Assembly (NCBI GenBank): GCA_009746045.1
Contig: RPFO01000065.1
Span: forward strand, 7,441,862-7,505,861
Length of the DNA: 64,000 bases
From: Mesostigma viride
Lineage: Eukaryota; Streptophyta; Mesostigmatophyceae; Mesostigmatales; Mesostigmataceae
Direction: 5' to 3'
A program made the translations under genes and the position numbers. The notes under the pieces are model-generated. The model was not told the origin of the DNA. It made no database searches and saw nothing but the letters and a program-made list of their open reading frames with translations. This document shows positions 23,508 through 64,000 of the stretch, piece after piece. How positions within the stretch are numbered: the first letter of the stretch is position 1; every line of letters starts with the position of its first letter.

Positions 23508-23526
23508 CGGGATTTTTATGAATACA

Positions 23527-23877
23527 AGTTAAAGCCCGACCGGCTCAGCTATGGCGGTCGGTCACGTTGAGCTTGGGAGAAGGTGAACACAGAGAACTGC
23601 TGTCGGAGCTGGCCAACCACTGGTTTATGTCTTAGCCAGCAAAGCCTATCCGGTTAGCCGTAACCGTGGGACAGGCTATAGCTGTCCGTACCGACCCGGA
23701 TAAGGCTCCGGACTGGGGCCTAGGTGGCGCCGGCCCTAGGCGCCGCCCTTAGACCGGTCGACCGCATCGGACCGCCGGATTAATAATAGCCGGCGGCTTA
23801 GCGGACGCTAGCGGAAGGCGTGCGGACGGACATGGGGAACTTAGAGCCAGATCCTAGGGCTCTAGAGTTACTCAACT
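23527..23877 (-). repeat. Copia A 5' LTR
   Basis: Lies just upstream of the Gag start at 23507 on the minus strand; the leader between LTR and ATG is only about 20 bp. Confidence 0.9.
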
Positions 23878-38882: not shown

Positions 38883-40288
38883 TAATTAATTAATTCATTA
38901 ATTAATAGACACGTGACTGCGTCACGTGAGCATAAGTCCTCAGTGAGAGGCGGGAACATGGGATGGGATGGATGGTGTAAGCTATCTAGGTCCTAGTTAC
39001 AGGGGTGTGGGCACCGCGGCCCGAATCGCTATGAATGCCATTATTACGCGGTCGCACGCGGAGTACCCACAGACTTGGGGGTGGTCTCCTTCATCACTAC
39101 TTGCCATCTATCCTTGCGTACCATCTGCCTCCATATTACAGACAAACCAGGAGGCTGCCCGGGCGTGAGCCCGTCGCGTCTAGTGTAGCACATGTCCATG
39201 CCGAGTCTATCACGAAAAGTCCACGGGTGGCGGCCCTGCCGCGCGCGGCCTGGGGCACGCCATGCAGGTGAGGACATATCGCCCACTGGCTGGGCGGGTT
39301 TGGTGCCAGCTAGTCTATCTGATGTGTCTACCTGATCTGTGCGGGCCAGGTGCCCGGCTAGGCCCAGGCGCCTGTGCCTAATAATGTGGGAAACATAGGG
39401 CAAATCAGCGTACAAATCCTCATTACTAATGTGCAAACCAAAGGGGATGTTAAGGGCCTTGCGCAGCATCTTGGTGACGGTGCCGTCGAGTCGTTGCTCC
39501 AGCTCCTGCGTCAGTGTCCAGGTCTCGGCGCCGTAGGTCAGGATCGTCAGAATGACGACCTTGAGGAGGTCACGCTTGACGATCCGGGGTAGGGCGGGGT
39601 TGCTCCACCAGCGGCGGTGGTCATGGAGGTGCGCCCACGCCATGCCGATCCATGTCGTCATGCAGGTCGTCCTCGCAGTCGGGAAGCCAACTGCCGAGCA
39701 GCTTGAAGCGGCCTGAAGTAGGGTAGGGGACCTCGGTGTCGTCTAAGAGGCGGAGTGCATGTGGGCCGGTGGGGGCCCTGCCATGCCGATCGGGGGCCAG
39801 GGCCTCCGTTTTAGGGCTGATTTCTAGACCAACCGCCCGAGCCCTCGAGCGCCAGGCAGTCCAGCCAAAGTTGGGCAGACTCCGGCTTCTCGATGAGCGT
39901 GATGTCGTCGGCATAAATGAGGTCAGCTAGTAAATTCTGCTTGTTGGTCGGCCCCCCTTCTCCAAGCTCGTTCGTGATCGTTAGGCCGGGGGCACGGCCT
40001 GCAATGCTAGCAAAGCGAGCACGTGTCTGGCGCATAACATAATCCACTACAATAATAAACAGGTACGGCGTCGGACAGGACGCAACCCTGCCAGACGCCG
40101 GTCTGCAGTGGGCATGGCGGGGTAATGCCGTGTTGAGTGTGCACCAAAGTGGTCGACCCCTCATACAGCGTGCGGATGACGGTAATCAGGGGAGTGGGGA
40201 CGCGAGCGCGAGCAAGTACAGCCCATAGAGCGTCCCAGAGGACAGAATCAAAAGCCTTGATGAAGTTGACGAAGATCAGGATGGCGGG
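38883..40288 (-). mobile_element. APE LINE copy (LINE B), 5'-truncated, with 11-bp TSD
   Basis: Flanked by AGACACCTCAT on both sides (38872-38882, 40289-40299). The minus strand reads from RT (AILIFVNFIKAFDSVLWDAL; LLADLIYADDITLIEKPESA) through LTYGAETWTLTQELEQRLDG to RHRRLGLAGHLARTDQVDTS and a stop near 39046. The 3' tail is ATTA-rich (38883-38907). It has frameshifts near 39830 and 40010 and is 5'-truncated within the RT. Confidence 0.88.
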
Positions 40289-42321: not shown

Positions 42322-44296
42322 TCAGGGCTGATGTGGCCCTCTGCTCGGACCTGCCCTGGTACCCCCAGCAAAGCTCTTTGTCGTGTTGCCATTGCCCCTC
42401 TGCAAAAACTGGCTGTTTCTCACGGGCTTGTCCCTTGCCCCCTGTCCACCACCATTTGGTTTGTTTCCCGTCTTTGCTGGCGACCCCGCAGAATGTAGCA
42501 CTTTGCCCTTGCCCGCCGCTCCCGCCGCTGGCCTGTTCTCCCCAGCTCCCTTCCCTGCAGGGGCTGACTGCAGCGCGGCCGATGACAGCTGTGGCGTCTG
42601 GGCCAGCCACTGCCTCCACAGAGGGCATGTCTTCAGCGTGGGCGCATGGCCGACACCCACGAGCGCAAACCGGCTGCGCGTGAGCAGCACGTTGGCGCGG
42701 CGGGGGTCCTCCAGGAATCCCAGGTAGGAACCCGAGCGCACGGCGGTGAACACGACCACATCGCGCTCGTAACCCTGGAACCCATCGATGGTCGACTTGC
42801 GCACGAGCGGGTTGGGGAGCACCTCCTCCAGCAGCTTCAGCTGGCCACGGTAGGGCGTGAGCACCACCACCTGGTCGGGGCTCAGCTTTCCGGATGCCAG
42901 GAGCCGGTCCACGACCGCAGCCACCACGGCCGCCTCGGCCTGGTTCTTGTAGGACGTGCCCAGCGCGTGTCTTTCCGCGGAGCCCTCCACGTGCACAAAG
43001 CAGCTGGGGTGGTGGTTATCCGGCCACGGGAATAGGCTGTCCGGCAGGACGCGCTCCGCCGCCATGCTAGGGTCTGATGTTAAGCGGCTGCCATAAAACT
43101 GCTGGGAAGGAAACGCTGCCAGGTGCGGGTGCATGCGGTGCTGGACATTCAAGAACACACGGGGGGTGCCCTCCACCACGTTCCAACGATGGAACAGGGA
43201 CATCTCCATCTCGGCCAGCGTCGGCAGGCCCGGCCGTTCCAGGTATGCTGGCGCACGCGCGACCGTGGGCGCCAGCTGTGCGGGGTCACCGATCAGCACC
43301 AGCCGGCGGCACGCATGGGACAGCGCGGGCCATAGCGCGGGCTCCGTGGCCTGCGTGGCCTCGTCCACCAAGACCGTCCCAAACGCCAGGGACCTGAGCA
43401 GGGGGTCCCCCGCGCCGTCGCAGGTGGTGCACACGACGGACGCCGCCCGCAAGAGCCGCCCCGCTGCTGATTTGGGGAGGAACTTGTCGTCTGCCTCGGC
43501 ATCCGACGTCCCCCAGTTGCCCTCGCGGCCTTGCGACAGCTGTCCTTGCAGCGTGATGGGGTGGAGGTCGGGCGCCACGAGCTGGAGCTGGTTGCAGAAG
43601 CGCACCACGTTCAGCCCGTCCCTGTGCGCACGCCGGGAGATGTTGTCGATGGCGATGTGGGTGGCTGCCACGACCAGAACCCGCGAAACTGATCCTCCCC
43701 CTCTAACCTCCATCCGGCTGTCTATGTCTGTCTCTTCTCTATCCTTGTCCTCTTCTTCTCCATCCTTGTCCTCCCCAGTGAAGACTTCGCTACGCGACGC
43801 CCCATGGGTGGCCTGCCGGCGCTTGCCGGTGCTGCTAAGCTGGCACACGTTGCGCAGAAAGGCCGCCGCCACGTGGGTCTTACCAGTGCCAGGTGGCCCG
43901 TGGATCAGCGTCACGGGGCCATGCAGGGCCAGCTGTACCGCACGATGCTGCATATCATTTAGATTGTCATTGCCACCACTGCCGCCACCGCTTCCACTGG
44001 CACTACCGCTTCCACCGCTTCCGCTGCCACTACCGCTTTGACTGCCATCACTGCCACTTTCAACGCCGCCATCGCTGTTGCTTGTATCTCTCTCATCCCC
44101 ATGACTGTGGCCATTCATGCCATTCATGGGGGCACTCTGGCTGCCATTTGAGTGCATATGATCATTCGAGTGCATTTGACCATTCGACTGCGTACTACTA
44201 TGACCATTCAAGCCTATTTGAACAGCAGCACCTTCATTACCGTTGGTGCTGTTCATCTCTAGCCTTGCACGGCCCTGCTGATTCTCGATGTAAAAT

Positions 44297-44337
<41 letters not shown>

Positions 44338-44775
44338 ACGCGTGCCAGGTGGCAGCCACAGAGGCAGAGAGTGGCACATGAGGCCGCCGCCCTCGCTCAT
44401 CCTCAGGCACGCCTCCAGCACCCGCTTGTACACGACGATGTTGGGCAGCGGCTCCACACGCCACGCACGGGCGTAAGCCCCGCTCTCCATGTCCTGGCGC
44501 AGCAGGTTCGAGGAGGGCGGCCACGCAACCTGCACTGTGAGCACGAGGGGCACTTGCAGCACTGCCTGCGCCACCAGCGCGACCTGCTGTTCCTCCGACT
44601 GCTGTTCATCTGGGAGGCCACCACCCGCTGGTAGTGTGAGGTCGGACCGCCGGGGTGTCCTGCGGGACCAGGCGCACCCACTGCCCACGCTGGTAGGGGC
44701 ACCCGTGCGGCGGGGGCTGCGTGCCAGCGAGCGCCACGAGGCGGTGCCGACGGTTCTCCGCCGGCCCCCCGTCAC
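42322..44775 (-). CDS. SF1 (Upf1/Hrr1/SDE3-like) RNA helicase domain of the AAA-RDR-helicase gene
   Basis: Open frame of about 800 codons ending at 42322. Motifs in order: I HGPPGTGKTHVAAAFL (~residue 290), Ia VVAATHIAIDNI, II VLVDEATQATEPALW (~468), III LIGDPAQLAPTV, IV NVQHRMHPHLAAFPSQQFYG, V TIDGFQGYERDVVVFTAVRS (~664), VI VLLTRSRFALVGVGH. This is a complete Upf1-family core (DEAT box). Before it are a polyQ of 13 and a Ser/Gly linker; the tail is Gly/Lys-rich. The true reading enters from the frame of 44606-45466 by a shift near 44640-44690, so the first ~40 residues of this frame are probably not protein. Upf1-like helicases such as Hrr1 and SDE3 work with RDRs in RNA silencing. Confidence 0.85.
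44299..44337 (-). repeat. CAG/CTG trinucleotide repeat, 13 units, coding polyQ
   Basis: In frame within the helicase part, giving Gln13 between an RDR-helicase spacer and a low-complexity region. Pure, uninterrupted run. Confidence 0.95.
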
Positions 44776-45466
44776 CGCCTGCCTTCATGTCCTCACGATG
44801 CGCCGGCCGCACAAGGAGACCTTCCAGTGCGTTGGGGACCGAGACAGTCGGCGCCGCGTGTACCTGCCGAAGGTCACTTTGAGCGCCGGCAAGTCTTTGG
44901 GAGACACTAATATTACTATTTGTCCTGGGATTAAATAGTGCTCCATGGCCTCCAAACGGGGACACGTGGCGGCCCTGAGCGCGCGGCGGGCTCAGCTGTG
45001 CGCACTCGGCCATCAACGCCAGCAGGTGCAGGTAGCAAAAAAAATTGCTGTAGTCTAGCGGCGTGGAGACGTGCGCGGCCGTCGCGGGAACGGGGAATCG
45101 GCCCACTTTGGGGTCAAACAGGAAACGCGCAAACGCGGGCCACAACCCGCCCTTTGGCGCCACCGCCCAACGGCACCAGATATCCCAGCGTACCAGCAGG
45201 CCGTGGCGCAAGAAGTAAAGCCATTCGTGTTCCGTCTGGTCTCGTGATGGAGCCGGCAACGACGTGCACCGCTGCTCAAGCGCTTGCAGCAGCTGCTGGC
45301 ATAACCCCCGGAAGGGCTTTGGAGACAGGGCATCCAACTGGAAAATCAGCAGGAGCCATTTCCACCACCAGCAGGGTGCGTCTCCCCCGCTTCCTTCCTC
45401 GGTTGACCCTCCGTTGCTGCCTTCCGCCAACGACCCCCCATCCTCAAAAAAAAAATACCCCAGCAT
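44606..45466 (-). CDS. Linking segment between the RDR and helicase parts, same gene in a shifted frame
   Basis: 285-codon frame that takes over from the RDR frame at a run of ten A (about 45446-45455) and hands over to the helicase frame near 44640-44690. Content is folded-looking (LLIFQLDALSPKPFRGLCQQ, WLYFLRHGLLVRWDIWCRWA, TPLDYSNFFCYLHLLALMAE), then HGCPYQRGQWVRLVPQDTPA, which resembles the beta-barrel stalk entry of Upf1-type helicases. No introns fit the joins. Family of the first part not recognised. Confidence 0.7.
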   Translation of the reverse strand: MLGYFFFEDGGSLAEGSNGGSTEEGSGGDAPCWWWKWLLLIFQLDALSPKPFRGLCQQLLQALEQRCTSLPAPSRDQTEHEWLYFLRHGLLVRWDIWCRWAVAPKGGLWPAFARFLFDPKVGRFPVPATAAHVSTPLDYSNFFCYLHLLALMAECAQLSPPRAQGRHVSPFGGHGALFNPRTNSNISVSQRLAGAQSDLRQVHAAPTVSVPNALEGLLVRPAHREDMKAGGDGGPAENRRHRLVALAGTQPPPHGCPYQRGQWVRLVPQDTPAVRPHTTSGWWPPR

Positions 45467-48400
45467 GATCTCTCCACCATCTCCACAAACCCAGCGTCGA
45501 GGGCTGCCTCACGCGGCTCCTGCCTTCGCTGCACCAAGAGGGTGCGTAAAGCCTGCAAGGTCGCGCAGGGCTCCGACTCAGGAACCACAGGAAGTGAGCC
45601 TGGCAATACGTCCCCCAGCCCTCCCCACATGTCCTCATCCCATCCGAATTCGGCCGGGCCAGCTTGACCCGCGTTTCCCACGCGCTCCCCATCCCCCTCT
45701 GTCCACCCGTGCTCCAGCGCCGGAGCCTCCACCGCACACGTGTTGGTCCGCATGTTCGGGTGCTGGATGTATATCTCCGTGCGCAGGCACTTGCGCTTGG
45801 TGATCAGCGGGTGTGGTGGCCGCCGCGCGCTCGTCCCGGAAACGAGCGCGCGATCAAACCGTCGCAAGTCAATGCTGAGGCGGTCAAACAGGGCCGGTGC
45901 ACTGCCGCCGCCTCTGCCGCCACCACCAGCACTGTTGGCCTCGCTTTTGAACCAGAGAAAAGAATTCTTCTCGTGGCCCTCGAAAATCTGGAGCAGGCCC
46001 TCTCCTCCGACATCTTCCAGCCGGATGCGGTACTGCGGCGTGAGCACGTGGCGGAAGCGGTAGCCAAATGCCTCGGAGAAGAAGTAGACCGCCACCGAGT
46101 GGTTCACGGCGTTCCCCTCCCACCGTGTCTCGATGTTAACACCTTGTCCTGTCCCAGCTTGTCCTGTCCCAGCTTGGCCTGTCCCAGCTTGGCCTGTCCC
46201 AGCTTGGCCTGTCCCAGCTTGACCTGTCTGGCCACCGGTACCGTTGCCGCGGTCACCCCCTCCACCGCACCCATTACCATCGCCAGCGTCTGGGCTCCCG
46301 TGGGGCGCAGAAGACCGCGGAGTAAACAGCGGCCCCAGCAGCAGGATCGCGATGACCACGCCATCCGACAGCTGCTGGATGATCAGGGCGCGCTGGAACG
46401 CCACCAGGCTGGTCCACAGGGGCCCCCAGGAGCCATCGCGGCTGTACAGGCGCCAGCGGCCAGCCTCGCCGTCCCCCTCCTCTGCGGTGACCCTCGGCCG
46501 GAGGTATGCCAGCATGGACGGGGTCAGGATGGCGGAGCACGCGAACACGTCCAGCAGGGAGGACAGGGACGGCAGCCGCGGGAGTAATGCTAGCGCCCGG
46601 GCGTGCAGGTCCCGCAGGTGCTGCCAGGGGACGCGCCCCACGTCCACCCACGGCAGGGCCTTCTCCCAAAGGCGGTAGGCCTGCCAGCTGGACAACAGTG
46701 ACGAGGTCAGAAGCGACCGCGTCCATCGCAGCAGCAGCTCGAGCACCAGCGTGTCGCTCAAGGGGAAGCTGTCGCGGCTGCCAGAGGCCAGAGCCTCCAC
46801 CAGAGGCTCCAGTTCCTCGGGCGCCTCGCTGGCGATGGCTCCGCCTGCGTCACCAGCGGCGAGGTCAGAACGCAGCGAGGCTTCCAAGAAAGCGGCCGCC
46901 CTCCGCTTCAGGACTCTCCAGATCTTCCCCTCATGCTGCCCTTGGTCCTGGACGCCCCCAGGGTTCACACCTGTCTCCTGTTCCCGCTGCAGCTGCTGCT
47001 CTAATGCCAACTTGGCGGACGGCGACACAAACAGGTGGGGTGACACCATGACTCTCTCGCCCGACTTGGCCGCGTCGATGGCGCGCCCGAACAGCTGCCC
47101 CAGCTGTACGCACTCGAGGCACTTCACCCCATGGGGTGAAATGTCCGCCCACAGTTGGTATAGCTTGTGGACCAGGCCCACCTTGGACTGCACCTGGGAC
47201 GCGAAATAATCGACCCACGCGGCCTGCCGTGATGGCGCCCGCGCACCGCCCCCCGGCCGGGACGGTGCGGGTGGATAGTCATGGGGGCGTTGTATCTGGT
47301 TATCGGAAGGGATCAGATCCGTGTCCCACGTCACAAAGAACTGGTCCCCGTCCAGGTCCGACCCCGCGATCTCCTCCGCGGGCGATCGTGCCCCTCGTGT
47401 GGGGAACACCACACAGTCCACCAGGTGTTCTAGCGCCCGCAATCCCCTATAATCGTCGACGGTCACCGCGAGCAGCACACGCACGTCCCCCAGCAGGTAG
47501 CAGGGCGTCTTGGACACGATCACACGGCCGCGGATAGTGACCGGGTCCCCGCGGTGCATCACCCGCAAGAAACACGTGCCCTCGGGGAGAATGCCGTAAG
47601 GGTCGCACACGCCGAACAGGACGCGGGATTTGGGGATCAGGATGCGCAGGCGGGGGCCCTTTTCCATCAGGCACCGTCGCAGTTTTCGGAGGCCCGCCTG
47701 CACGGGCAGCGGGGCCACGGGGTCTGCCAGCGCGAGCGCCCACTCGTGCTTGTTCTCCCACAGGCACAGCTCGATCGCGTCCTCGCGGGAGGTCGTGCCG
47801 GGGTCCAGCAGCTTGAAGTATTCGTCCTGCTTCGCGAGGAAGACCTGGTCGGGGATGCCCAGGCCCGACAACAGCTGGATGTACTGCAGGTTGAGGTGGC
47901 CGAACTTGTACGGCTGCGAGTAGTCCTTGACGCCTAGCAACGGGAACGCGCTGGTGTCAAACTTAAGCATGGACTTCCGCACGTGCAGCGCATGGGAGGG
48001 GATGAGGGGGTCCACGCAGACCACCCCCTTGCAACCCTGGAAGCGCACCTGGAAGACCGACGGCCGGTACCGGTGGTTCATTATCAGCTTGCTGGTCTCT
48101 GCCCCTGGGTCCTTTAGCCAACTCCGCACCATGTTCCATACTTGACCCGCCAGCCCTGTGCCAATCTTGCCGCAACCGTCGGTCAGTACGTGCCCAGGCA
48201 TCCGCCCCTCGATGTCATCAATCTTGAACACACGGGTATTGTCCACGGGCACCGTGAGCCGCACAGTTGTCAATAGCAGCCCGAACCGCGCCAGCTGTTT
48301 CGAGACCGGCTGCTTCAGCAGGCTTGCGCTGGTACACTCGGTCACCATGGCATCGAGTTCCTCGGGGCCATCCGCGGCGTAGCAGTACCCGCGCCGCGCC

Positions 48401-49010
48401 TTGAGCCCGCTCGAGCTGCAACCGAGGAAGAGAAAACGGCGGCGGCCCACCTGGATGGCCCCCGACAGCAAGCTGGACACCAAGGGCGCCTCCATGCGCC
48501 CTTCAAACTCGACTTTAAGCCAGCGGTTAGGGTCACTGTAACGCGCGAACAGACGGGTCGTCTCGTCCGAGCTAGACACCAGGGAACTGGTGGAGTACAT
48601 GAGCTCGCAGGGCGAGATCGAGAGGGATGTCAGCATGGTGCTGGACGCGGTCGGGACCGCCACGTGGCGCTCCGCTATTGGGGGCCACGGGCCTCTCCCT
48701 GAACTCAGATCCGGCACAACCATGTGCGCCGTTGGGTCAAAGCACCAAACAGGGCGGCTCTTGCCCTGCTGCCTTGTCACCTCCGGCAACCGGGCGAACC
48801 GCTCCCACGTATACTGCAAGGTAACAGCTCTTCCGCGCACTCCTCCCAACCACACCCGCTCCAACTCGTCGCACCGCTCCGTGCGCCCCTTCTCCCTCAG
48901 CTCGTAGTACGCCACCCTGGACGCCGCCAGCAGGTCCCGATATTTCTGTGTGATCTCGTCCAGCTCCCGGCGGAGCCTCCTCGTGCCCGTATCCGCACGC
49001 CGTCGTCCGC
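45346..49010 (-). CDS. Eukaryotic RNA-dependent RNA polymerase (RDR) domain
   Basis: The frame is open from 49296 to 45346; the part upstream of about 49010 is covered by the AAA frame. RDR signatures in order: RRRFLFLGCSSSGLKARRG, HVLTDGCGKIGTGLA, PSVFQVRFQGCKGVVCVDPL, ALHVRKSMLKFD, LNLQYIQLLSGLGIPDQVFL, SRVLFGVCDPYGILPEGTCF, GRVIVSKTPCYLLGDVRVLL, HLVDCVVFPTRGARSPAEEI and catalytic GSDLDGDQFFVTWD (~residue 646 of this frame). The usual RPHP..E..SGSDLDGD reads RSPAEEIAGSDLDGD. Such enzymes make double-stranded RNA for siRNA pathways. Residues ~950-1300 have no known domain and include a GQAGT repeat. The frame ends after the A10 run, where the linking frame continues. Confidence 0.92.
46140..46235 (-). 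repeat. 15-bp coding minisatellite (GQAGT repeat)
   Basis: About six copies of CAGCTTGGCCTGTCC/CAGCTTGTCCTGTCC on the plus strand, coding GQAGT in the RDR frame without breaking it. Disordered loop. Confidence 0.9.
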
Positions 49011-49493
49011 TTGGGGATGTGGCAGCGGCGGCACCAGCACCACGAGGGCCTGCTTGTAGCGGCCAAGGCAGCCGTGCCACGCGTCGGATTGGAGGAGCCT
49101 CTGTGCACGCTCGGGCCCATCTGGCAGATAGTGGGATGTGTAGACCACAGGGTCCATGGCCCCCCGATCGGAGATGAATGCCCGGCCCTGCTGACCCTGT
49201 TGCTTCTCCCACTCGCGCTCGTACTCGCCCTGGCGTTCCAGAATGGCTTGCTGAAAGGAGAAAAAAAAGTCGGCGCTCTGGGGCGAGTCCGCGCACGTCT
49301 GCACGGCATGCTCAAGTGACCGCTGTGTGTACTGCGGTCGCTCCGTCATGATGTTCCGCGCCACCTCAAAGATCGGGTGCAGGGACCCCTCAGGAAGGCG
49401 GGCACAGATCTCACGGAAAAGGGTCGTCTTCCCCACCCCGCTGGCACCGCACAGGACGAGGTTGACCGGTGCTGGTGATAACGTCATACTCAT
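48897..49493 (-). CDS. N-terminal P-loop ATPase (AAA_28-like) of the AAA-RDR-helicase gene
   Basis: First ATG is 49493 (MSMTLSPAPVNLVLCG). Walker A GASGVGKTTLFREI; then FEVARNIMTERPQYTQRSLE, FSFQQAILERQGEYE, AFISDRGAMDPVVYTS and VLVPPLPHPQADDGVRIRA. This order (P-loop, E.aR, Q..R, DRg..D..Y, R lid) matches the AAA_28 family of kinase-like ATPases. Near 49000 the protein-like reading moves to the RDR frame (DTGTRRLRRELDEITQKYRD), which continues the AAA_28 C-terminal helix, so the two are one protein split by a one-base shift. The upstream 70 bp is a pyrimidine tract on the coding strand. Confidence 0.8.
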   Translation of the reverse strand: MSMTLSPAPVNLVLCGASGVGKTTLFREICARLPEGSLHPIFEVARNIMTERPQYTQRSLEHAVQTCADSPQSADFFFSFQQAILERQGEYEREWEKQQGQQGRAFISDRGAMDPVVYTSHYLPDGPERAQRLLQSDAWHGCLGRYKQALVVLVPPLPHPQADDGVRIRARGGSAGSWTRSHRNIGTCWRRPGWRTTS

Positions 49494-49957: not shown

Positions 49958-51921
49958 TTCATGTCCCACGTAGCTCCCACAAAAACCAGCATCTTCATTA
50001 AAACAATAAGTGGAAGCATACATGTGACACTAATTGACATGCCCGGAGGCACGCCGTTCAAGGCCCTTCATGAAGTACGTTGCCCTAGAGGCAACCAAGA
50101 CAAGGGTGGGTGGGTGGGGAGCAAAGAAAGAGGCCGACAAAACCAGCCAGAGCGGCTTTTAGTCGCAAAACCTCCCTTATCCCTAGCTAACTGACGTCAT
50201 TAAACCCTTATGTTTAGTGGATGCTAGTAAGACGCTAACCGTACAGACCGGGGGTAGAATATCCCGAATCTGCACGGCTAGTATTAAATAATGCGTAGGT
50301 TGTTCTTTTCAGGGGCACTGCACCTCACGCCCCGTTCCGCCCGGGTATAATCAACCCAAGCGCGGAACGCACATTTTATTTAATTCATTTTTCAACCATG
50401 CACTATATTGCATCTACTAATCACAAAAGCTCTAGCCAAACAGCTACGAGTAAACACTGCGACCTATAAGCCGCTCATCCAGCGGCCTCTTGTTCCCGCA
50501 TTCACGTATAGAAGAAACTCCGTTCAAAGAACCCCGATTCATGTCCCACGTAGCTCCCACAAAAACCAGCATCTTCATTAAAACAATAAGTGGAAGCATA
50601 CATGTGACACTAATTGACATGCCCGGAGGCACGCCGTTCAAGGCCCTTCATGAAGTACGTTGCCCAATCACCCCCGCCCTGGCTTTCCCTTGAAGCCGCA
50701 CTCCACCTTGCTCGTTGTCACAAGTGACCGCCCTGCCGCAAAACGGGAGCCCCCCCACATCGGGAGGCGTGTGCCCGGCGGCTGTGGATGCATGGCCAGG
50801 CCCAAAAAGGCCCAGCGCATTTGCACTGCGATTGCGCACGGCCAGCCTATCATGACCCCTCTCGGGGCCCCGAGTCGGTACCGCTATGGCCGTCTCCCCA
50901 TAGACCCGGGGTGCTTCGAGAAAAAACGTGGACCTAGCCCAGGCCCCGCCAGCCCGGATGCCCGAGGCCACAGCCCCAGGCACCTGGCTGAACGAGAGTC
51001 CGTTCAGCCAAGACCGCATTCCCCCCGAGGTTTCTATGCGTGGGGAAAAAATTTCTAGCTTAGACGCTTTTCCCATCGCCGTCCCCAGCCCCAACCACCC
51101 CCCCCTCGGCGGAAGGCAATTGCAAAGTTTGCTGGCCAGCAGCAATTTCCGAAGAAAAAGCCGCAGGCCGCGGACCGAGACACGGGTCGCCAGTGCCAGC
51201 CATCCGGCTCCAACCCGGGGTGCAAGCATCCCCAGGTACGGAGCACCAGCTCGCGCACTGGGCCGACCAAGCGACAGTTGAGCACCTGTCACGGCATCCG
51301 GCCCACCAAAGACCCCAAGCTGGGGAAAAGGTGCGGACCGGAGGTAATCTTTTTCTTTTCTTTTAGTTAACCGGGCGAGGAACTACGCCTGGCCGGTTAA
51401 CAACTGGAAGTCTCACCACTGGCCAAGTGGCCAGTGCAACCAGTGCTTTTGGGATTTTGCTCCGCAGCACCCATAGCTGCGGCTGCCGCCGCAACGACAA
51501 CGAGCAAAGAAAGAGGCCGACAAAACCAGCCAGAGCGGCTTTTAGTCGCAAAACCTCCCTTATCCCTAGCTAACTGACGTCATTAAACCCTTATGTTTAG
51601 TGGATGCTAGTAAGACGCTAACCGTACAGACCGGGGGTAGAATATCCCGAATCTGCACGGCTAGTATTAAATAATGCGTAGGTTGTTCTTTTCAGGGGCA
51701 CTGCACCTCACGCCCCGTTCCGCCCGGGTATAATCAACCCAAGCGCGGAACGCACATTTTATTTAATTCATTTTTCAACCATGCACTATATTGCATCTAC
51801 TAATCACAAAAGCTCTAGCCAAACAGCTACGAGTAAACACTGCGACCTATAAGCCGCTCATCCAGCGGCCTCTTGTTCCCGCATTCACGTATAGAAGAAA
51901 CTCCGTTCAAAGAACCCCGAT
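49958..51921 (+). mobile_element. Split-direct-repeat element K1
   Basis: A 49958-50085 (128 bp), spacer with GGGTGGGTGGGTGGGG (50086-50118), B 50119-50538 (420 bp), A' 50538-50665, C 50666-51501 (836 bp), B' 51502-51921 (420 bp). A/A' and B/B' look identical over their length, so insertion is recent. C codes nothing recognisable. Left junction AAG|TT|CATGTCC, inner junction CCGA|TT|CATGTCC, right junction CCGA|TA|TTTTG; no target duplication. Non-autonomous DIRS/TOC1-type design. Confidence 0.85.
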
Positions 51922-53483: not shown

Positions 53484-54827
53484 ATGACCATGGCAGCTAT
53501 CGCTGTCGTAGAAGTTGAGAATTTCGATATCACACGGTTTGCAAAGGAATCTTTGCCGGTGGTCGTGGCTGAGCTGAACAAAGTGCATGGTCCGCTCCTC
53601 GAGCTTTTGCCTAATGATGGCAGCGAACCAGTTTTTGTTGCGACTCATCCCGGATTTGCGCAGCACGTACTCCGCCCCAACGGCAAATTCTCCCAGCGCT
53701 TTGGCAATCCGGAGGGGTTGGCGACATTACACATGCATGAACAAGGTGTAATTTGGAACAACACCGAGGAGGATTGGAAAGCAATTCGGAAATGCATTGA
53801 AAGCCAATTAACTGCCAAACAACTTCAACGGGCCGTGGAAATATCTCGGGAGGCCACGTTGTCGTATTGCCAACATTGGACCGGCACATCTGCGCCCATT
53901 GACGTTCTGAAGGAGCTGCGGGTGATCACTTTGGCGATAGTGCTGGAACTCTTCTTTGGCATCATCGGCAAACCGCATGGATTCCTGCTGCCGCTGACGG
54001 AAGAAGTGGTGGCATATTTCAAGGCCTGGGAGTACTGCCTGTTCAGATCCGGCGTGGAGGCGTCATCATCCCCCCGAGCACGACATGCCGTCGATGCAGT
54101 GAACGCCCTGACTGCAAGCATCACCAAGCTGATACCTGAAGCTCGCTCGGACTTCATGGACAAGCTGAAAACCTTGCAGTCTGAACACAACTGGTCGCAA
54201 GAGCAGATCGTTCAGATCGTGCTGGAAGTGGTGATCGCGGGGACTGACACGTCATCCGTCACCATGTCATATGCGCTGTTGGGCATGTGTGACCCACACC
54301 ACGTGGGTCTCGCGCAGCGAATACAAGCGCAGGCGACACAGCTCTGCGAGGCGATGGAGGCGGGTGAGGTACCCAAACAGGCAGCCTTGGACAAGCACAT
54401 GCCGACATTGCATAAGCTCTTGCTAGAGAGCATGCGGTTCAAGCCAGTGGGACCGGTAGTGCTCCGCAAATGCACGGCATCTGATCCTTATGGCGATGTT
54501 CCGCTGGAGCCAGGTGATCGTGTGATCCTCAACTTGGCTGCCATGCATCGGTCGGAAGATTTGTTTGAGCAGCCAGAGTCGTTCGACCCTGAGTGCAACT
54601 TTGCGGCTGAGTGCCCCAAGTTCGTGCCTTTTGGGAAAGGGCCCAAGGGTTGCGTCGGCCAACATCTGGCCAAGGTGGAGATGCTGGTGGTGATGTCCAC
54701 GCTGGTGCACAAATTCGACTTTTCGCTCGCCGAGGGTCAGGTTTCCCTGAACGAGCTGACCACTCATTGGGACATTGCCAATCAGCCTACCTCTCCGATT
54801 TACTTGGTGGCGAGACCAAGGTGCTAA
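53484..54827 (+). CDS. Cytochrome P450, CYP19 (aromatase)-like, intronless
   Basis: 447 codons from ATG 53484; the frame is open back to an ATG at 53277 (516 codons), but the extra 69 residues are not P450-like and contain the possible TATA box. I-helix AGTDTSS, K-helix ESMR, MHRSEDLFEQPESFDPE, and heme loop FVPFGKGPKGCVGQHL with the Cys ligand. GVIWNNTEEDWKAIRKCIES, the spacing LRKCTASDPYGDVPLEPGDR and ILNLAAMHR resemble the CYP19 clan more than plant P450s. No N-terminal membrane anchor is seen, so the protein may be soluble or targeted by an undetected signal. Substrate unknown. P450s are usually intron-rich in green algae, so lack of introns may mean transfer or retroposition. Confidence 0.88.
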   Translation: MTMAAIAVVEVENFDITRFAKESLPVVVAELNKVHGPLLELLPNDGSEPVFVATHPGFAQHVLRPNGKFSQRFGNPEGLATLHMHEQGVIWNNTEEDWKAIRKCIESQLTAKQLQRAVEISREATLSYCQHWTGTSAPIDVLKELRVITLAIVLELFFGIIGKPHGFLLPLTEEVVAYFKAWEYCLFRSGVEASSSPRARHAVDAVNALTASITKLIPEARSDFMDKLKTLQSEHNWSQEQIVQIVLEVVIAGTDTSSVTMSYALLGMCDPHHVGLAQRIQAQATQLCEAMEAGEVPKQAALDKHMPTLHKLLLESMRFKPVGPVVLRKCTASDPYGDVPLEPGDRVILNLAAMHRSEDLFEQPESFDPECNFAAECPKFVPFGKGPKGCVGQHLAKVEMLVVMSTLVHKFDFSLAEGQVSLNELTTHWDIANQPTSPIYLVARPRC

Positions 54828-55298: not shown

Positions 55299-56694
55299 TG
55301 CTGTTTATTATTGTAGTGGATTACGTTATGCGCCAGGCACGTGCCCGCTTTGCTAGCATTGCAGGCCGTGCCCCTGGCCTAGTGATCACGAACGAGCTTG
55401 GGGAGGGGGGCCGACTTTAAACAAGCAGAATTCACTAGCTGACCTCATTTATGCCGACGACATCACGCTCATCGAGAAGCCGGAGTCTGCCCAACTTTGG
55501 CTGGACTGCCTAGTGCCTGGCGCTCGAGGCTCGGGCGGTTGGTCTAGAAATCAGCCCCAAAACAAAGGCCCTGGCCCTCGGTATGGCAGTGCCCCCGCCC
55601 ACACTCCGCCTCTTAGACGCCGACACCGAGGTAAACTACCCCACTTCCGGCCGCTTCAAGCTGCTCGGCAGTTGGCTTCCCGACTGCCAGGACGACCTGA
55701 CGACACGGATCGGCATGGCGTGGGCGCAACTCCATGACCACCGCCGCTGGTGAAGCAACCCCGCCCTACCCCAGATCGTCAAGCGTGACCTCTTCAAGGT
55801 CGTCATTCTGACGATCCTGACCTACGGCGCTGAGACCTGGACACTGACGCAGGACGGCTGGAGCAACGACTCGACGGCAACGTCACCAAGATGCTGCGCA
55901 ATTAATTAATTAATTAATTAATTAATTGATTAAACTCGTGCTCCCGTTGGGGAGTCACGGAGCACCGAAGTGCTTTTAATCCCTGAGTGTGCACAACAGG
56001 AGAAAGGGCAGAGACCCCCAGTCTCCTAATTCATGCCTAAGGCATGCCACAGCTGCATGCGGGCACGCTATAGCTAAACGGACACGCTAACGATCCGGCA
56101 GTCTGTGGGTGCAATAAGACCCATCATGTGAGCATATCATAACAAGGAGCGTGGGCAAGTAATCTGATCATAGCCAGGACGTAGCATGGCTGTACAAGGA
56201 CTGTGCTGCGCAAGGCCGTGTTGTCCCCTTTGGTTTGCACATTAGTAATGAGGATTTGTACTATGATTTGCCCTATGTTTCCCACATTCTTAGGCACAGG
56301 CGCCTGGGCCTAGCTGGGCACCTAGCCCGCACAGATCAGGTAGACACATCAGATAGACTAGCTGGCACCAAGCCCGCCCAGCGCCAGCCTGGGCGTTATG
56401 TCCTCACCTGGCGTGCCCCAAGCCGCACGCGGCAGGGCCCGGCCACCTGTGGACTTTTCGTGATAGATCGACTCGGCATGGACATGTGCTACCCTAGACG
56501 TGACGGGCTCGATCACACCCGGGCAGCCTCCTGGTTTGTCTGTCATATGGCGCATGGCTTCTCACGAGCCACGAGCCACGAGGTAGCCATGGCTGACGGC
56601 GGAGCTCGTAACTTTCACGTTTGGGCACCAATTTCGGCCGTGAATATCGCAATCGCTTCGTCTTTCTAAGAATCCGTGTACACGCTGATATAAT
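55299..56694 (+). pseudogene. APE LINE copy (LINE C), 5'-truncated, with a nested SINE-like insert
   Basis: Very close to LINE B: LFIIVVDYVMRQARARFASI, ADDITLIEKPES region, NPALPQIVKRDLFKVVILTI, then interrupted at 55901 and resumed at 56204 with ISNEDLYYDLPYVSHILRHR and LGLAGHLARTDQVDTS. Frameshifts and stops. 5' truncation falls at 55299 inside the RT. It ends next to the family X element starting at 56695. Confidence 0.82.
55901..56203 (-). mobile_element. SINE-like insertion with 9-bp TSD and ATTA tail
   Basis: Flanked by TGCTGCGCA (55892-55900 and 56204-56212), cutting LINE C at its MLRKA codons. The minus strand ends GTGACTCCCCAACGGGAGCA, then an AATT/TTAA tail (55901-55931). The 3' motif CCCAACGGGAG... 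is shared with family X 3' ends, so it was probably moved by the same LINE machinery. No clear pol III box. Confidence 0.75.
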
Positions 56695-58670
56695 TTTCCG
56701 AAGCTATTACGCAATGTATGTCGAGCAAACGCTCCTCCGCGCAACGCAGCCTGGCGGCTGCGCTAAGCCCTGAAAATATACATCTGCAGCTCCGGCTGCA
56801 GCCTCGCCCTCAGGTCCGGAAGGCAGTGCATGACACTAGTCGCGCACTGGTGGTCGCCCAGATCCCTCCCGAGCTTTCCTCGCCCTCTGCATCGCCTGAG
56901 CCCAACGCAGCCACCCGGCCTGCCGAGCCGCATTGGGACGAGATCACCTTTGACAGCAACGCACCTGGCTATACTGGACTCGCAGCCCAGGAGCCTTCAT
57001 GGAAGACGTGTTTTTCGGCACGCACGCTTCGCTTGTCAACCTGTGCTCGCACCTCATCTCCCACAACCGCGGCCGCTGGCCAAGTGGCCAGCCTTTCATC
57101 CCCGCCGAAGATCTCCCAAAAATTCTCGATCCGCATGAATCAGTCGCCCCCGGCTCCAGCGCTTCGCCCTCTGCTCCCTCCTCGGGCGCTCCGACGCCGA
57201 GATCTGGGCTTCCCCACCGCCCCACCCCACCGTCGCGAGCGACACCATCATCCGCAACCTCCTTAAGGAAGCTTTCGAGCAGCACGTGACTCGACCCCTC
57301 GCTGCAGATGTGGCGGCAATGGTCCGCACGCTGGCTACTGAGCTCCCTCACCTTTCCACGTACCGGCCACCGTCACCTCCACCTCTGGCCGGACACCCTC
57401 CTCGCCTCCTCCACCGCCCCGGCCCACCCCCGCCTCCGACGCCATCACCGCCAGTCTGCGACATCAACCAGCGCGCCTCAAGGACAACACCATCGCCATC
57501 GAGTGCCTGCAAAACACCGCAGGCCTCACCGCCCAGGCGGTAGTGAAGGACATTGCCGCCAAGCCAGCCCCCGCTCAGTAGCCGGCCCGGCTGGCGATGC
57601 CCCTCGATCCGGCCCACCCAGACCTGGGCGGACATGCTCAAGCAACACACTGGCCACCTCCACCACCTCCGCCGTCGCAGCACGGCTCCAGCAGCAGACG
57701 CTCGATCGACCTCCGCGAGGAGGCTGAGCTCGCCAAGCGCAGCCTTAACGTCATCCGCGTCAAGAACTTCGACCTGGTGGAATGTGAGAATTCCGAGAAG
57801 CTTGCACGTGCGTTTGAGAGAGATCGAAATCCTTGGTCGCATGGGCCTTAATCTTGGTGAGATCGAGCTGGTCGCCCACCGCCTTCCCCACTCGCGGGGT
57901 AAGGCAGGGGCGCCCCCGCTTCTTCTCAGTCCTTTAACAACCCGGCGGACAAGCTTTCTTTTCTCAGACGCCGCAAGCGGCTCGATCGAGAAGACTCACT
58001 TCACCCTGGACGACGACTTGACCCTGGCGCAGCAATAACGGCGACGGGAGCTATGCATGGCCGACCTAGTATACCTTCAGCTCCGGCAGACCACGGCGGG
58101 GAAGCCGGTTTACTGGAAGGGGGCGGCCATCTACGTCGGCCACAAGCCCTGGCATGCACGCGACCCCCGCGGCCCCATGCAGCGACTCCAGACGCCCCTG
58201 CATGATGAGCTTAGTAGGGGAATACAGCAGTAGCAGTGTAGAATAGTCCTGAAGGCCTAGCCACCGTGGCCTTGTACATGTACGTACGCCTACTATATGC
58301 ACTATACCTGCTTATGCATTAGCATTATTTAGTCTTGTACAAGTGTGCCTATGATGTGCCACACACCAGATGATGCCTAGCTTTATTTAGTTATGCTGTG
58401 CCCACGCAGGGAGTTACTCTCTGCTGAGAAGCCATGCCCTAGCTCGCCTTTGTATTGCCATGCTGCTCTTCCCCCCCTATGCCAGCGCCTTCCGGTAGGT
58501 GCTAGGATGTCATAGGGGTGCCGCAGGTGCACTTTGTGCACCGGCAGAGCAGGTGTATAGTTTACACCCTACTACACTTGCAGGAAGTAGCCCAGAGTGT
58601 ATTAATTAAAGGCCATATGCCCCTTCTCAGGGATATGTGCGACATATACAGTCCCAGCGGAGTTATGTTT
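56695..58670 (+). mobile_element. Family X element, full-length copy: ORF1-only non-LTR element
   Basis: 5' terminus CCGAAGCTATTACGCAAT as in the copy at 15881. The decayed ORF1-like gene runs ~56716-58150: FMEDVFFGTHASLVNL at ~56997, a Pro/Ser-rich linker, then ADKLSFLRRRKRLDRED, TLDDDLTLAQQ (58000-58036) and GKPVYWKGAAIYVGHKPW. The last part resembles the C-terminal domain of L1-type ORF1 proteins (D-L-T..Q..R..lwp...GK..yW). The 3' UTR ends GGGATATGTGCGACATATAC, CCCAGCGGAGTTATGTTT and continues directly into (CAATT)n. There is no RT or endonuclease. Confidence 0.78.
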
Positions 58671-59473
58671 CAATTCAATTCAATTCAATTCAATTCAATT
58701 CAATTCAATTCAATTCAATTCAATTCAATTCAATTCAATTCAATTCAATTCAATTCAATTCAATTCAATTCAATTCAATTCAATTCAATTCAATTCAATT
58801 CAATTCAATTCAATTCAATTCAATTCAATTCAATTCAATTCAATTCAATTCAATTCAATTCAATTCAATTCAATTCAATTCAATTCAGTTCAATTCAATT
58901 CAATTCAATTCAATTCAGTTCAATTCAATTCAATTCAATTCAATTCAATTCAATTCAATTCAATTCAATTCAATTCAATTCAATTCAATTCAATTCAATT
59001 CAATTCAATTCAATTCAATTCAATTCAATTCAATTCAATTCAATTCAATTCAATTCAATTCAATTCAATTCAATTCAATTCAATTTTGTTTGATTCGATT
59101 CAATTCAATTCAATTCGATTCAATTCAATTCAATTCAATTCAATTCAATTCAATTCAATTCAATTCAATTCAATTCAATTCAATTCAATTCAATTCAATT
59201 CAATTCAATTCAATTCAATTCAATTCAATTCAATTCAATTCAATTCAATTCAATTCAATTCAATTCAATTCAATTCAATTCAATTCAATTCAATTCAATT
59301 CAATTCAATTCAATTCAATTCAATTCAATTCAATTCAATTCAATTCAATTCAATTCAATTCAATTCAATTCAATTCAATTCAATTCAATTCAATTCAATT
59401 CAGTTCAATTCAATTCAATTCAGTTCAATTCAATTCGATTCAATTCAATTCAATTCAATTCAATTCAATTCAA
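58671..59473 (+). repeat. (CAATT)n array, left part, tail of the X element
   Basis: About 160 units with rare CAGTT/CGATT variants and one disturbed spot near 59083-59100. It starts exactly at the X 3' end and ends at the K4 element. The FNSIQ frames across it are repeat artefacts. Confidence 0.95.
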
Positions 59474-62400
59474 TTTCTGAGCTATCTGCTCATTTTATAG
59501 TTATGTTATGACACTTGAGCTCCCAAGAAAACCAGCATTTGATTGAAAACAATGAGTAGAGCCCCTGCCAAAGGCAGGTTTAAGTAGTCATCTCGTCTCC
59601 CTCGCATGCAGGAGCAAGAGCCCCCCAAGGGTGGGATGGGTGGGAAGAAACAATTACGGGTCACAACCCGCCGACCATGCTTATCAAGCCTACCGTCAAA
59701 ATGGAAAACGGCAAAACCAGAAATATCCTAACGCTGACAATTTTTTAATTCAGCCAGCCAGCTCATCTGTCACACGTCTGAGCTGTCAGGCCATGTGTAC
59801 TCTTCGAATGCAACCCTGAACACACTACCCAACCAAGCAGCACACCAATCAATTGGTGAGTGCTGGTTACATCAGATTTTATTACAGCTTTTTGACGCAA
59901 CTTCCGTCAGCATTCCACACATGGCCGGCCGTTCAAACAAACGGCGCCTGACTTACAAAAGGCAAAGCTAGTTGCCAGTAGGATTCCCCGGTAAACAACA
60001 AGTCGTCCCCATTCGTCTAACAAGCCTCTCTGCATGTACAGCCACAAGGTTGTGGCGGCCCTTTCTTTCCCGCATTCTGTTTAATAAACTATTTTCAGAG
60101 AAATCCGATTATGACACTTGAGCTCCCAAGAAAACCAGCATTTGATTGAAAACAATGAGTAGAGCCCCTGCCAAAGGCAGGTTTAAGTAGTCATCTCGTC
60201 TCCCTCGCATGCAGGAGCAAGAGCCCCCCGATCCACCCCAGTCCCTGGCGCCATTGCCCTCCTCCCCCGCACTGTCGCCGTTCAGGAAACAAAACTTGAT
60301 AGGATCACTGTTGCCCCAATAACAGTGAACAAAGAAAAGAAGAAGAATCCCCCCCCTCTTCCAGGCAGCCTCGAGGGTAGCCGCTTCCATAAAAAGACCA
60401 CAAAGTGGGGCGTGTCGCAACATCTCCTTCATGGCGACTCAGCCCGCACAAGGCTATAATAACCCCCTAAGGGGCCCGACGATAAAAGGTTAGCGAATCC
60501 GCGGAGCCGCCTCAGCAAAATATGATTCCAGATAAAAACCCAGAAAATTCGCATTCCGACGCCACCAGGGTTTGAACCGCTACCTGCCGGGTGCTGAGCA
60601 GGGAGAGACGACAAGGCCAGGCACTGCCACTGCCAGCCGAGACGCCTTTCCGATACTCGGTTCCTTTTGTGGGAATTTTGCAAATATATTTTCTTCCGGA
60701 ACGCAAGAAATTAGCCGGCCGCGCGTCACCCTTATATCCCTCGCTGGCCCATAACAAAAAAGGGCCGCGCACCAAGCCGAAGGCAGCGCCATGCAGCGCC
60801 CTAGGCTGTGGGCCGCTGACTGACTACCAGCGCAGTCTCATGGAATCCAAATTAATCTATTGACCTTCGCACAGTTTCCGCATTAGCTGCGGACTTCTTA
60901 GTCGACATGATTGGCTCCGCTGCTGGAATTACCAGCAGCCGGGGCGGGGCGCCCAGCCCACTTTCTATGACCACCGAGACGCTGCCCAGCAAGGTGCCAA
61001 CCAGAACCACTTGGCACATTGGTAACGCGAAATTTCCGTTCCGTTCAAACCGCCCCTACCTGCCGTAAAGTCGCAAAACCCGCGACTTCATAGCAGGCAA
61101 GGACGGGGTCTTTGCCTAATTTTCTTTAGCCCCGCCGCCATAGCAGCGAGGCCGCTCATACTGCTTCAGTGAGCACATTCAAAGAAACAATTACGGGTCA
61201 CAACCCGCCGACCATGCTTATCAATTCAGAGAAATCCGATTGCGGCGGGCTCAAAGGGGGCCGATCTGCCGCCTGTAGCGTAGCTCTACCGTACGTCACC
61301 TACACCATGTAAGGTGCTTGTTGTTACTTAGGACTAGAGAGAGAAAGGGACCGGCGGTGCGCCGGTACTATAGTGCCTACTGGCAACCGTGCCCGCCCTT
61401 GATTGAGGGGGGCGCGGCGCCTTGAGACATGTGCTTTGTTTTCCATTTTCATGTGCACCGTACTTAGAGTGGTGTGGTGAACGTAGAGAGGCCTTTTTGC
61501 AGCTCGCAACTTTCCAATGTGAGGAAAGGTGGGCTGGCCGCTAGGGGGGCCGCTATGGCTGCTACGCCCAATGTAAGTACGTCGACGCTGCGGGCCTCCC
61601 CGTGTTACGGAGAGGTGACCCGCTGTTGTTCGAAATATTGGTGAAGGGTTGAAGTGCTGTTCCTAGGGTGTTCCCCCATGGCGCTGGGGTGCGCCGGCCG
61701 GGCTCCAGTTGGGAGCCCGTAGTGACTTGAATTTCGAAAGTCAATGAAGAAGGAAGGCGGTTTTTAGAGAAGGCGGTTTTTGGCGGAGAGCCCTGCGAAA
61801 GGACAGTGCGAGGTGACCAGCCCTGATTAAGGAAGCGCTAGATTTGCTCTCGGGTAAAGTGTCCGCCGGGGATTTTTTATCCCTGTAGCGGCGTGCACGG
61901 GGGATCGAAACAGGGCGTTTTTCATAAAGATGGGGGTCAAAAGAAACCAGAGGCGGAGGAGGGTGCACCAATGGCAGCGGCTGCCGTGGGTCGGGGGGGT
62001 CCTGTCGGCATGGGAAGGTCGGCAGGCACCCTGTACCCTCTCGGAGCTCCGGCGAGCAGCTAGGCCGGCCCCTTAAGGCTTCTGCCCTTGGCGATAAGGG
62101 AGAGGTGGGAAGCTGCGGAAAACCGTGGGTATCCATGCGCACTTACAAAAAAGAAACTCTACAGCGCCTGGCAAGCCTGGAAAAAAATTTTCCCCTCGAG
62201 GGGGGCGCGTGAAAACGGCAAAGGGAAAGCGGAGCCCGCCGCCTTGCCCCCCTCGAGGGGGGGGGGGTGCGTGTGGAACCCGGCAATGCGGTCCGGCTTT
62301 GTTTTAAGAAAATGCATTATATACCATAATAAAGCTCCACTCGGCTGCGGCTGCGCCAAGGCTCGTGACACCATGGCGATGGTGAGCCTTGGCGCTAGGA

Positions 62401-63567
62401 GGTCCGCAGCCATCATTATCACCACGATGGGGGGTAATAGAGCCAGTGGCGGTGGCTCTACCCTCGGGAAATCCCAGCGGCTTTGCCGGCCGGTGGGCTG
62501 GTGATGGTGGTTGGGTGAGCTGGAGACGTTCCCAGGTGGCATAAGTCCTAAATTAAAGCGGCAGCACTGCCGGATGCGCCCCTCTAACAAGGGGAACGCA
62601 TGTGGCTCCGCCCTGCGTCCGCCGGGAGACCGTAGCGGCCACACGGGGGCGGGAAGGGGGGCATCATCATGCCAACAAGAGCCCAGCATTCCAAGTGGTT
62701 GTGTTCCTACCACCAGGGCTGGAAACGGCCTGGGTGGCCAGAGATGGTGATGTGGGACAAGATTGGACCAAGGGGGCATGTGCTGGGCCCCAGCATGGTG
62801 AACTGGCCTAACTTGACAATGACTTGTACAATGATTTTGAGGGTGTGGCTAGGCTCAACTGTTAAAGCCTGCACACACTTATTGTAAGAAACTTGTTTCT
62901 CTGGTAGGAAGGCACTCCAAGGGACCTTAGCTTCAGCACCTATTTTCTGAGCTATCTGCTCATTTGTTTAATTAACTTTTGTGCAATTATTTTTCTAATG
63001 AGATTAGCATAGTACTCCGTGGCATGCCTTTGCGCATGACACGCAAGTACTTACTTACTTACTTACTGCTCATTTTATAGTTATGTTGCGGCGGGCTCAA
63101 AGGGGGCTGATCTGCCGCCTGTAGCGTAGCTCTACCGTACGTCACCTACACCATGTAAGGTGCTTGTTGTTACTTAGGACTAGAGAGAGAAAGGGACCGG
63201 CGGTGCGCCGGTACTAGTGCCTACTGGCAACCGTGCCCGCCCTTGATTGAGGGGGGCGCGGCGCCTTGAGACATGTGCTTTGTTTTCCATTTTCACACCG
63301 TACTTAGAGTGGTGTGGTGAACGTAGGGAGGCCTTTTTGCAGCTCCCACCCACCCACCCACCCTCGCTGCTGTTAGGGACAAGATTGGACCAAGGGGGCA
63401 TGTGCTGGGCCCCAGCATGGTGAACTGGCCTAACTTGACAATGACTTGTACAATGATTTTGAGGGTGTGGCTAGGCTCAACTGTTAAAGCCTGCACACAC
63501 TTATTGTAAGAAACTTGTTTCTCTGGTAGGAAGGCACTCCAATGGACCTTAGCTTCAGCACCTATTT
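59474..63567 (-). mobile_element. Split-direct-repeat element K4, interrupts the (CAATT)n array and hosts K2
   Basis: Read on the minus strand: A 63567-63376, spacer with (GGGT)4 at 63375-63346, B 63345-62946, A' 62945-62754, C 62753-61506, B' 61505-61242 plus 59505-59474 (split by K2). A/A' are both 192 bp. B carries an extra ~110 bp compared with B' between two CTGCTCATTT copies. Flanks on both sides are CAATT units in register. Frames inside C (for example 62159-62779) are not recognised. Confidence 0.82.
59506..61241 (+). mobile_element. Split-direct-repeat element K2, nested in K4
   Basis: A 59506-59626 (121 bp), spacer AAGGGTGGGATGGGTGGG, B 59645-60110, A' 60109-60229, C 60230-61181, B' 61182-61241. 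B' has lost about 400 bp internally, joining at TCAATTCAGAG. A starts TTATGACACTTGAGCTCCCA, similar in layout to K1's A (both have CTCCCA.(G/C)AAAACCAGCAT). Left GT|TT... and right junctions share TT with the uninterrupted sequence at 63081-63095. Confidence 0.83.
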
Positions 63568-63800
63568 CAATTCAATTCAATTCAATTCAATTCAATTCAA
63601 TTCAATTCAATTCAATTCAATTCAATTCAATTCAATTCAATTCAATTCAATTCAATTCAATTCAATTCAATTCAATTCAATTCAATTCAATTCAATTCAA
63701 TTCAATTCAATTCAATTCAATTCAATTCAATTCAATTCAATTCAATTCAATTCAATTCAATTCAATTCAATTCAGTTCAATTCAGTTCAATTCAATTCAA
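63568..63800 (+). repeat. (CAATT)n array, right part
   Basis: About 46 units, in register with the left part once K4 is removed, so both are halves of one array. Confidence 0.93.
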
Positions 63801-64000
63801 TGGCCATGGCTGGAAGACGGGGCATTGACACCAACGGAACATACCTATAGATCTAGTAGTACTTACGTACGTGCTTGTGTGCCAGAAAGGCATGCAGGGA
63901 TCAACCTGCATGTGTGCATACATGCCAAGAATTGTATAGGTAAATTGCATGATTTCAGCACGCACATACAATGGTATCTTGTTGTAGAGCACGTATCACG
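63801..64000. other. Unassigned DNA at window end
   Basis: No frame or repeat recognised in the last 200 bp; it should be the original flank of the X element insertion. Confidence 0.4.

Follow-up and report, generated by a model that had tools for sequence, protein, structure and literature searches.

Cellular RNA-dependent RNA polymerases (RdRPs, RDRs) have been linked to helicases in several ways, as far as the excerpts available from the respective papers describe them. Fgrdrp5 of Fusarium graminearum carries an RdRP domain (PF05183), a DEXDc domain (1277-1478), and an AAA domain, PF13087, i.e., AAA_12 (1475-1677), on one chain and takes part in the accumulation of exonic small interfering RNAs (siRNAs) (PMC11237814), and an RdRP candidate of the amphioxus Branchiostoma lanceolatum, BL02069, has an additional AAA_12 domain (PMC6396948). 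Fusions of RDRs to DEAD-box helicases occur in Peronosporomycetes, Dictyostelium, Hydra, and Nematostella (PMC4791657), and the RdRPs of fission yeast and Caenorhabditis elegans act in small-RNA amplification with the separate superfamily 1 (SF1) helicases Hrr1 and ZNFX-1 (PMC9276528). Among green algae, RDRs are in print for Volvox (PMC5093975), Coccomyxa (PMC3446292), and the Chlorophyta (PMC7994812). Here we describe a gene of the green alga Mesostigma viride that probably combines an RdRP with a UPF1-like helicase and an N-terminal AAA_28 domain. It is located in a window of 64,000 nucleotides (C1468:7441862-7505861) of a genome of 439.9 Mb in 2,243 contigs, which was also used for the own-genome searches.

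Domain composition and reading frames

The gene spans positions 49493 to 42322 of the window on the minus strand and contains, in this order, an AAA_28 domain, a cellular RdRP domain, and an SF1 helicase (Pfam). Judged from its sequence, it is probably a green-algal RDR gene of about 2,390 codons with AAA_28, RdRP, and UPF1-like helicase on one chain, the product of which would amplify siRNAs with its own RNA translocase. A common ancestral frame of the RdRP C-terminal region and the helicase is well supported and the putative link of AAA_28 to the RdRP is supported by one copy, while we infer the activity, the pathway, and the role of AAA_28. The following features were located:

49493, minus strand: first ATG (reading-frame analysis)
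48880..49460, minus strand: AAA_28 P-loop domain over two frames, to 48993 and then from 48984 in the RdRP frame (Pfam, join test)
49422-49448, minus strand: Walker A of AAA_28 (sequence reading)
between 48993 and 48984, minus strand: frame change 1, inside AAA_28 (frame joining)
45449..48984, minus strand: RdRP reading frame with the end of AAA_28, a short linker, RdRP, and the C-terminal region (open reading frame (ORF) and translation)
47047..48561, minus strand: cellular RdRP, PF05183 (Pfam; best PDB match RDR2, 7eu0)
47344-47358, minus strand: catalytic DLDGD, intact (sequence reading)
46143..46228, no strand assigned: 15-bp tandem repeat, in frame, Gly-Thr-Gly-Gln-Ala linker (repeat search, translation)
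45449..46146, minus strand: RdRP C-terminal region, conserved with the second copy (copy comparison)
45446..45455, minus strand: frame change 2, a run of ten T (sequence, pairwise alignment with the second copy)
44666..45448, minus strand: middle frame upstream of the helicase core, conserved with the second copy (copy comparison)
44541..44683, minus strand: frame change 3, a variable linker that is in one frame in the second copy (alignment)
42604..43974, minus strand: UPF1-like SF1 helicase core, AAA_11 and AAA_12 (Pfam; best PDB match UPF1)
43876-43899, minus strand: helicase motif I (sequence reading)
43351-43368, minus strand: helicase motif II (sequence reading)
42670-42702, minus strand: helicase motif VI (sequence reading)
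42322-42324, minus strand: stop codon of the helicase frame (sequence reading)

The initial annotation had proposed three domains on one strand, a DLDGD motif, and a frame free of stops except for three frame changes, and Pfam and frame joining confirmed all of this: the joined frame comprises 2,388 codons and, apart from three net frame changes, has no in-frame stop. Its expectation of AAA_28, RdRP (PF05183), and AAA_11/AAA_12 profiles was likewise borne out, in the proposed order and on the minus strand. No sign of an intron was seen between ATG and stop. The RdRP frame is contained in a stop-to-stop ORF (45346-49311), and neighbouring ORFs of the gene overlap one another. An Rfam scan of the window gave nothing at the gathering threshold.

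The RdRP match (E-value 4e-93; 313.5 bits compared to a curated cut-off of 23.8) places this domain in PF05183, and RNA-templated RNA synthesis is its predicted activity. No Pfam family scored above the cut-off in the RdRP C-terminal region. In case of the helicase, matches to AAA_12 (1.9e-44) and AAA_11 (1.6e-37) together with motifs I, II, and VI indicate a UPF1-like SF1 helicase. Its nearest solved chain in the PDB is UPF1 (5.6e-64), followed by SEN1 (1.4e-36), NFX1 (4.7e-27), and SMUBP-2 (1.6e-23). Due to the fact that the zinc-binding CH domain of UPF1 found no Pfam match in the helicase or the middle frame, the helicase is not classified as UPF1 itself. The motifs of all three domains are intact, and since a second copy is collinear as well, the domain array is not a product of chance.

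The AAA_28 domain and its join to the RdRP frame

In the window scan AAA_28 was matched with an E-value of 8.8e-12. Its first frame alone reaches 45.7 bits and positions 2-128 of the 164 positions of PF13521, compared to 57.4 bits (cut-off 27) and positions 2-162 with the start of the RdRP frame joined (55.4 bits inside a longer piece). Shuffled tails yielded 47.4 to 48.9 bits in all four cases and extended the match to positions 130 to 145, none of them completing the domain. Because the joining of the frames completes AAA_28 and shuffled tails do not, the last part of AAA_28 shares the frame of the RdRP. The tail alone matched nothing in Pfam at E 0.001.

The near full-length match to PF13521 and the Walker A motif identify the domain as AAA_28. 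No NCBIfam match above the cut-off was obtained, and a PHROG search matched thymidylate kinase (1.9e-9). The domain would most likely serve as a nucleotide-binding switch or a nucleotide/RNA-end kinase, the two being about equally probable. Among the AAA_28 proteins are nucleoside kinases as well as P-loop proteins resembling TTD14. TTD14 itself binds GTP, according to the excerpt available (PMC4624897). In the algal gene AAA_28 occupies the place of the N-terminal region that canonical RDRs have of their own.

The second copy

Besides the gene itself, only one of the 22 matches of the own-genome helicase search is close, namely a copy on contig C1794 with 78% identity over 315 residues. This copy is 5'-truncated. 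It is collinear with the joined protein over a stretch of 1,168 residues (1114 to 2281), which comprises the RdRP C-terminal region, the middle region, and the helicase. A search of the genome with the RdRP C-terminal region retrieved C1794 again and no third copy. The C1794 copy keeps to a single frame both where the window has the T run and at the third frame change, and in the pairwise alignment the window lacks one base relative to it at the ten-T run. For eight out of nine segments, comparison of the two copies gave a ratio of nonsynonymous to synonymous change (dN/dS) of 0.23 to 0.49 (0.27, 0.35, and 0.43 in the middle frame), and for the ninth, which has 12 codons, of 0.92; given that the C1794 copy is dead, changes made under selection and without it are pooled in these values. 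From this comparison we conclude that one open frame, selected as a protein, was ancestral to both copies. The middle region is assigned to the same protein due to its conservation with the second copy and not via a profile. A leucine-rich-repeat ORF was read directly upstream of the truncated copy (C1794 upstream of 70824).

That AAA_28, RdRP, and helicase are adjacent, unfused genes is highly improbable: each stretch has its own frame, in which the main ORF of the respective domain lies, and the Pfam matches by themselves establish no link between the domains, but the first frame change falls inside AAA_28, the overlapping ORFs leave no room for transcript ends, and the second copy traverses the other two changes in a single frame. 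The second copy and the join test of AAA_28 support the proposal that, in a green alga, a single chain carries an RDR, an SF1 helicase, and, at its N-terminus, an additional P-loop domain. The wording of the initial annotation, "one continuous unit", holds for the ancestral gene, but not for the copy as assembled, which is interrupted by frame changes.

A codon-usage test, trained on the three domain cores and comparing all six frames, put the expected frame first in 11 of the 13 other internal segments, the misses being the tandem repeat (46130-46299) and 44800-45000. Since 2,867 non-coding windows cover a range that includes several of these values, this test is weak taken alone.

Frame changes and integrity of the window copy

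The window copy may be translated whole, be dying, or be mis-assembled at the frame changes. The third change is compatible with a single +1 step as well as with two -1 steps, and both readings were built. For comparison, one frame change in about 5 kb is likewise present in a Copia-like element of the window, and none in a cytochrome P450 ORF.

A programmed -1 ribosomal frameshift at the T run, with AAA_28-RdRP as the short product and a longer one that includes the helicase, is very unlikely. A U_UUU_UUU heptamer is indeed in register at the run, where we read the change as -1, but the second copy is without such a run and reads through in one frame, and no such heptamer was seen at the other two frame changes.

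Several observations weigh against a fused gene that is intact and expressed as one chain. The three net frame changes occur within 7.2 kb, and exact 420-bp direct repeats (50119-50538 and 51502-51921) of LTR (long terminal repeat)-like appearance start about 630 bp upstream of the ATG. Searches with the joined middle region found no Pfam family at E 1, and nothing among the solved chains scored below E 0.29. Furthermore, three of the 11 successes in codon usage were won by a margin of 0.02 or less, and the codon signal is weak at 45250-45650 and 44800-45000. The C1794 copy is dead: we counted five frame breaks in it as well as two to four stops, one of which is situated at the Walker A lysine. 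In addition, it breaks frame in a low-complexity variable linker within about 20 codons past the T-run position, and because of this early shift, continuity at the T run rests on the stretch up to that break. AAA_28 and the RdRP core are lost from this copy, which is uninformative on both, and the AAA_28-RdRP link is known from the window copy alone, the second copy being truncated before it. No relatives were confirmed in viral contigs (RdRP, helicase, and a 3-row RdRP alignment as queries), nor in genome contigs and phages, these collections comprising viruses and prokaryotes.

Some of these points would fit a young pseudogene of the same fused gene, with genuine frame changes and a product reduced to fragments; we regard this as a serious but rather unlikely alternative, and one that is compatible with the proposed architecture. 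It is favoured by the three frame changes, the LTR-like repeats close upstream, and the dead sister copy. At the ratio of stops to breaks of the sister copy, zero stops beside three breaks have an estimated chance of about 0.17 to 0.36, and hence the absence of stops does not exclude decay. On the other side, the catalytic motifs are intact, the joined codons are uninterrupted by stops over their whole number, and the ten-T run behind one of the breaks is a usual site of sequencing errors.

Genomic surroundings of the gene

Retroelement sequence flanks the gene on both sides. Beside the 420-bp repeats, which may represent a recent insertion of the LTR type close to the gene on its upstream side, an exact 128-bp repeat is present (49958-50085 and 50538-50665). 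Two fragments of a reverse transcriptase, of the LINE (long interspersed nuclear element) type by reading, are situated on either side of the gene in opposite orientation (39459-40062 and 55301-55901) and are about 90% alike.

An integrated virus or transposon cargo is an improbable explanation of the gene. It would account for the retroelement sequence on both sides, for the lack of any visible intron, compared to the RDR loci C1435, C668, and C1106, which match in separate pieces, and for the fact that the only AAA_28 match found in the genome is the window gene (29 of the 112 candidates scored). However, a match in one piece is also seen for the C1613 RDR, and the nearby P450 is in one ORF. 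No repeats were seen to enclose the gene as element ends, the flanking LINE pieces being separate elements, and viral contigs gave no confirmed relative.

The Copia-like element (18439-23528, minus strand) carries gag/integrase and reverse transcriptase in two frames with one change between them by translation, and had no Pfam match. The cytochrome P450 is encoded by a single ORF (53544-54824, plus strand); its nearest solved chain is the aromatase CYP19A1 (6.2e-38), a likeness unexpected for an alga. Long pentanucleotide arrays (GCCTC, TTCAA) occupy 362-1827, 58669-59475, and 63566-63801.

Other candidate silencing genes of the alga

Four further RDR loci were found, on C1613, C1435, C668, and C1106 (13 matches, 12 candidates scored). 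Five reading frames from these loci contain RdRP only at E 0.01, without extra domains. The RDR at C1613:2450311 onward has a long N-terminal region, and its RdRP keeps to one frame until a stretch of N is reached. With these loci and the published RDRs of Volvox and Coccomyxa, a chlorophyte RDR by itself is unsurprising. Piwi matches occur on six contigs. RNase III gave eight matches, among them two pairs spaced within 6 kb, and one pair member has two stops.

Chlorophyll a/b proteins gave 33 matches in the genome. One of them has its best solved matches in two multi-domain LHCI chains (9vfj; 516.9 and 411.3 bits), followed by the single-domain LHCII chain 6kac_Y from Chlamydomonas (363.7 bits). 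These matches agree with a green alga as the host.

Proposed mechanism and comparison with known systems

For the probable three-domain RDR, the following course may be envisaged. The UPF1-type module would load on target or aberrant RNA and remove proteins and structure. With the 5' to 3' polarity of UPF1, the helicase would translocate in this direction and bring the tethered RdRP to the 3' end of the template or the initiation site. The RdRP would then synthesise the second strand, and the resulting double-stranded RNA could supply the RNase III enzymes of the alga and subsequently its Argonautes. It is tempting, though speculative and doubtful at present, to regard the gene as a third eukaryotic RDR architecture, in which an AAA_28 kinase or GTP switch gates RNA or modifies its ends, the RdRP copies it, and the UPF1-type translocase delivers templates. 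If true, RNA quality control would be directly coupled to siRNA amplification in a green alga, and the gene would join the fungal and amphioxus RdRP-AAA_12 proteins as a recurrent or ancient coupling. The presence of an RdRP-UPF1-type fusion in yet another lineage suggests that the surveillance of templates can be mechanically coupled to the synthesis of double-stranded RNA, and the fused gene provides a single protein for testing this coupling, in a green alga with several RDR loci plus a divergent fused one. AAA_28 would provide an RDR with an activity that is new for these enzymes.

Plant RDR2 is the nearest solved RdRP (32.5% identity over 504 aligned columns); its solved chains are named RDR only, and the algal gene adds a helicase and AAA_28, neither of which is known from RDR2. 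UPF1/NAM7 is the nearest solved helicase, but in the alga the helicase is joined to an RdRP and shows no CH-domain match in Pfam. Hrr1 and ZNFX-1 resemble it as SF1 helicases partnering an RdRP, but are described as separate proteins in the excerpt available (PMC9276528), and the NFX1-type chain scores below UPF1 for the algal helicase. DEAD-box RDR fusions likewise have helicase and RDR on one chain; as far as excerpted, the oomycete helicase is of the DEAD-box type and N-terminal, whereas the algal one is UPF1-like and C-terminal (PMC4791657).

Like Fgrdrp5 and BL02069, the algal gene has an RdRP and an AAA_12 helicase on one chain. Fgrdrp5 differs in being fungal and in that the available text mentions no AAA_28; its helicase is placed at 1277-1677, and its domain order is presumed (PMC11237814). 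BL02069 is a proteome prediction, for which the part of the paper at hand states neither AAA_28 nor a domain order (PMC6396948). Neither the three-domain order nor AAA_28 with an RdRP was found in the literature searched, as far as its texts were accessible, most subscription journals and bioRxiv preprints lying outside it. The initial annotation, which knew of no described protein with this order, is only partly right here. The combination of RdRP and AAA_12 helicase on one chain is already known from Fusarium and amphioxus, and AAA_28 is not mentioned in the accessible parts of these two papers (PMC11237814, PMC6396948): the N-terminal AAA_28 and the order AAA_28-RdRP-helicase are apparently new.

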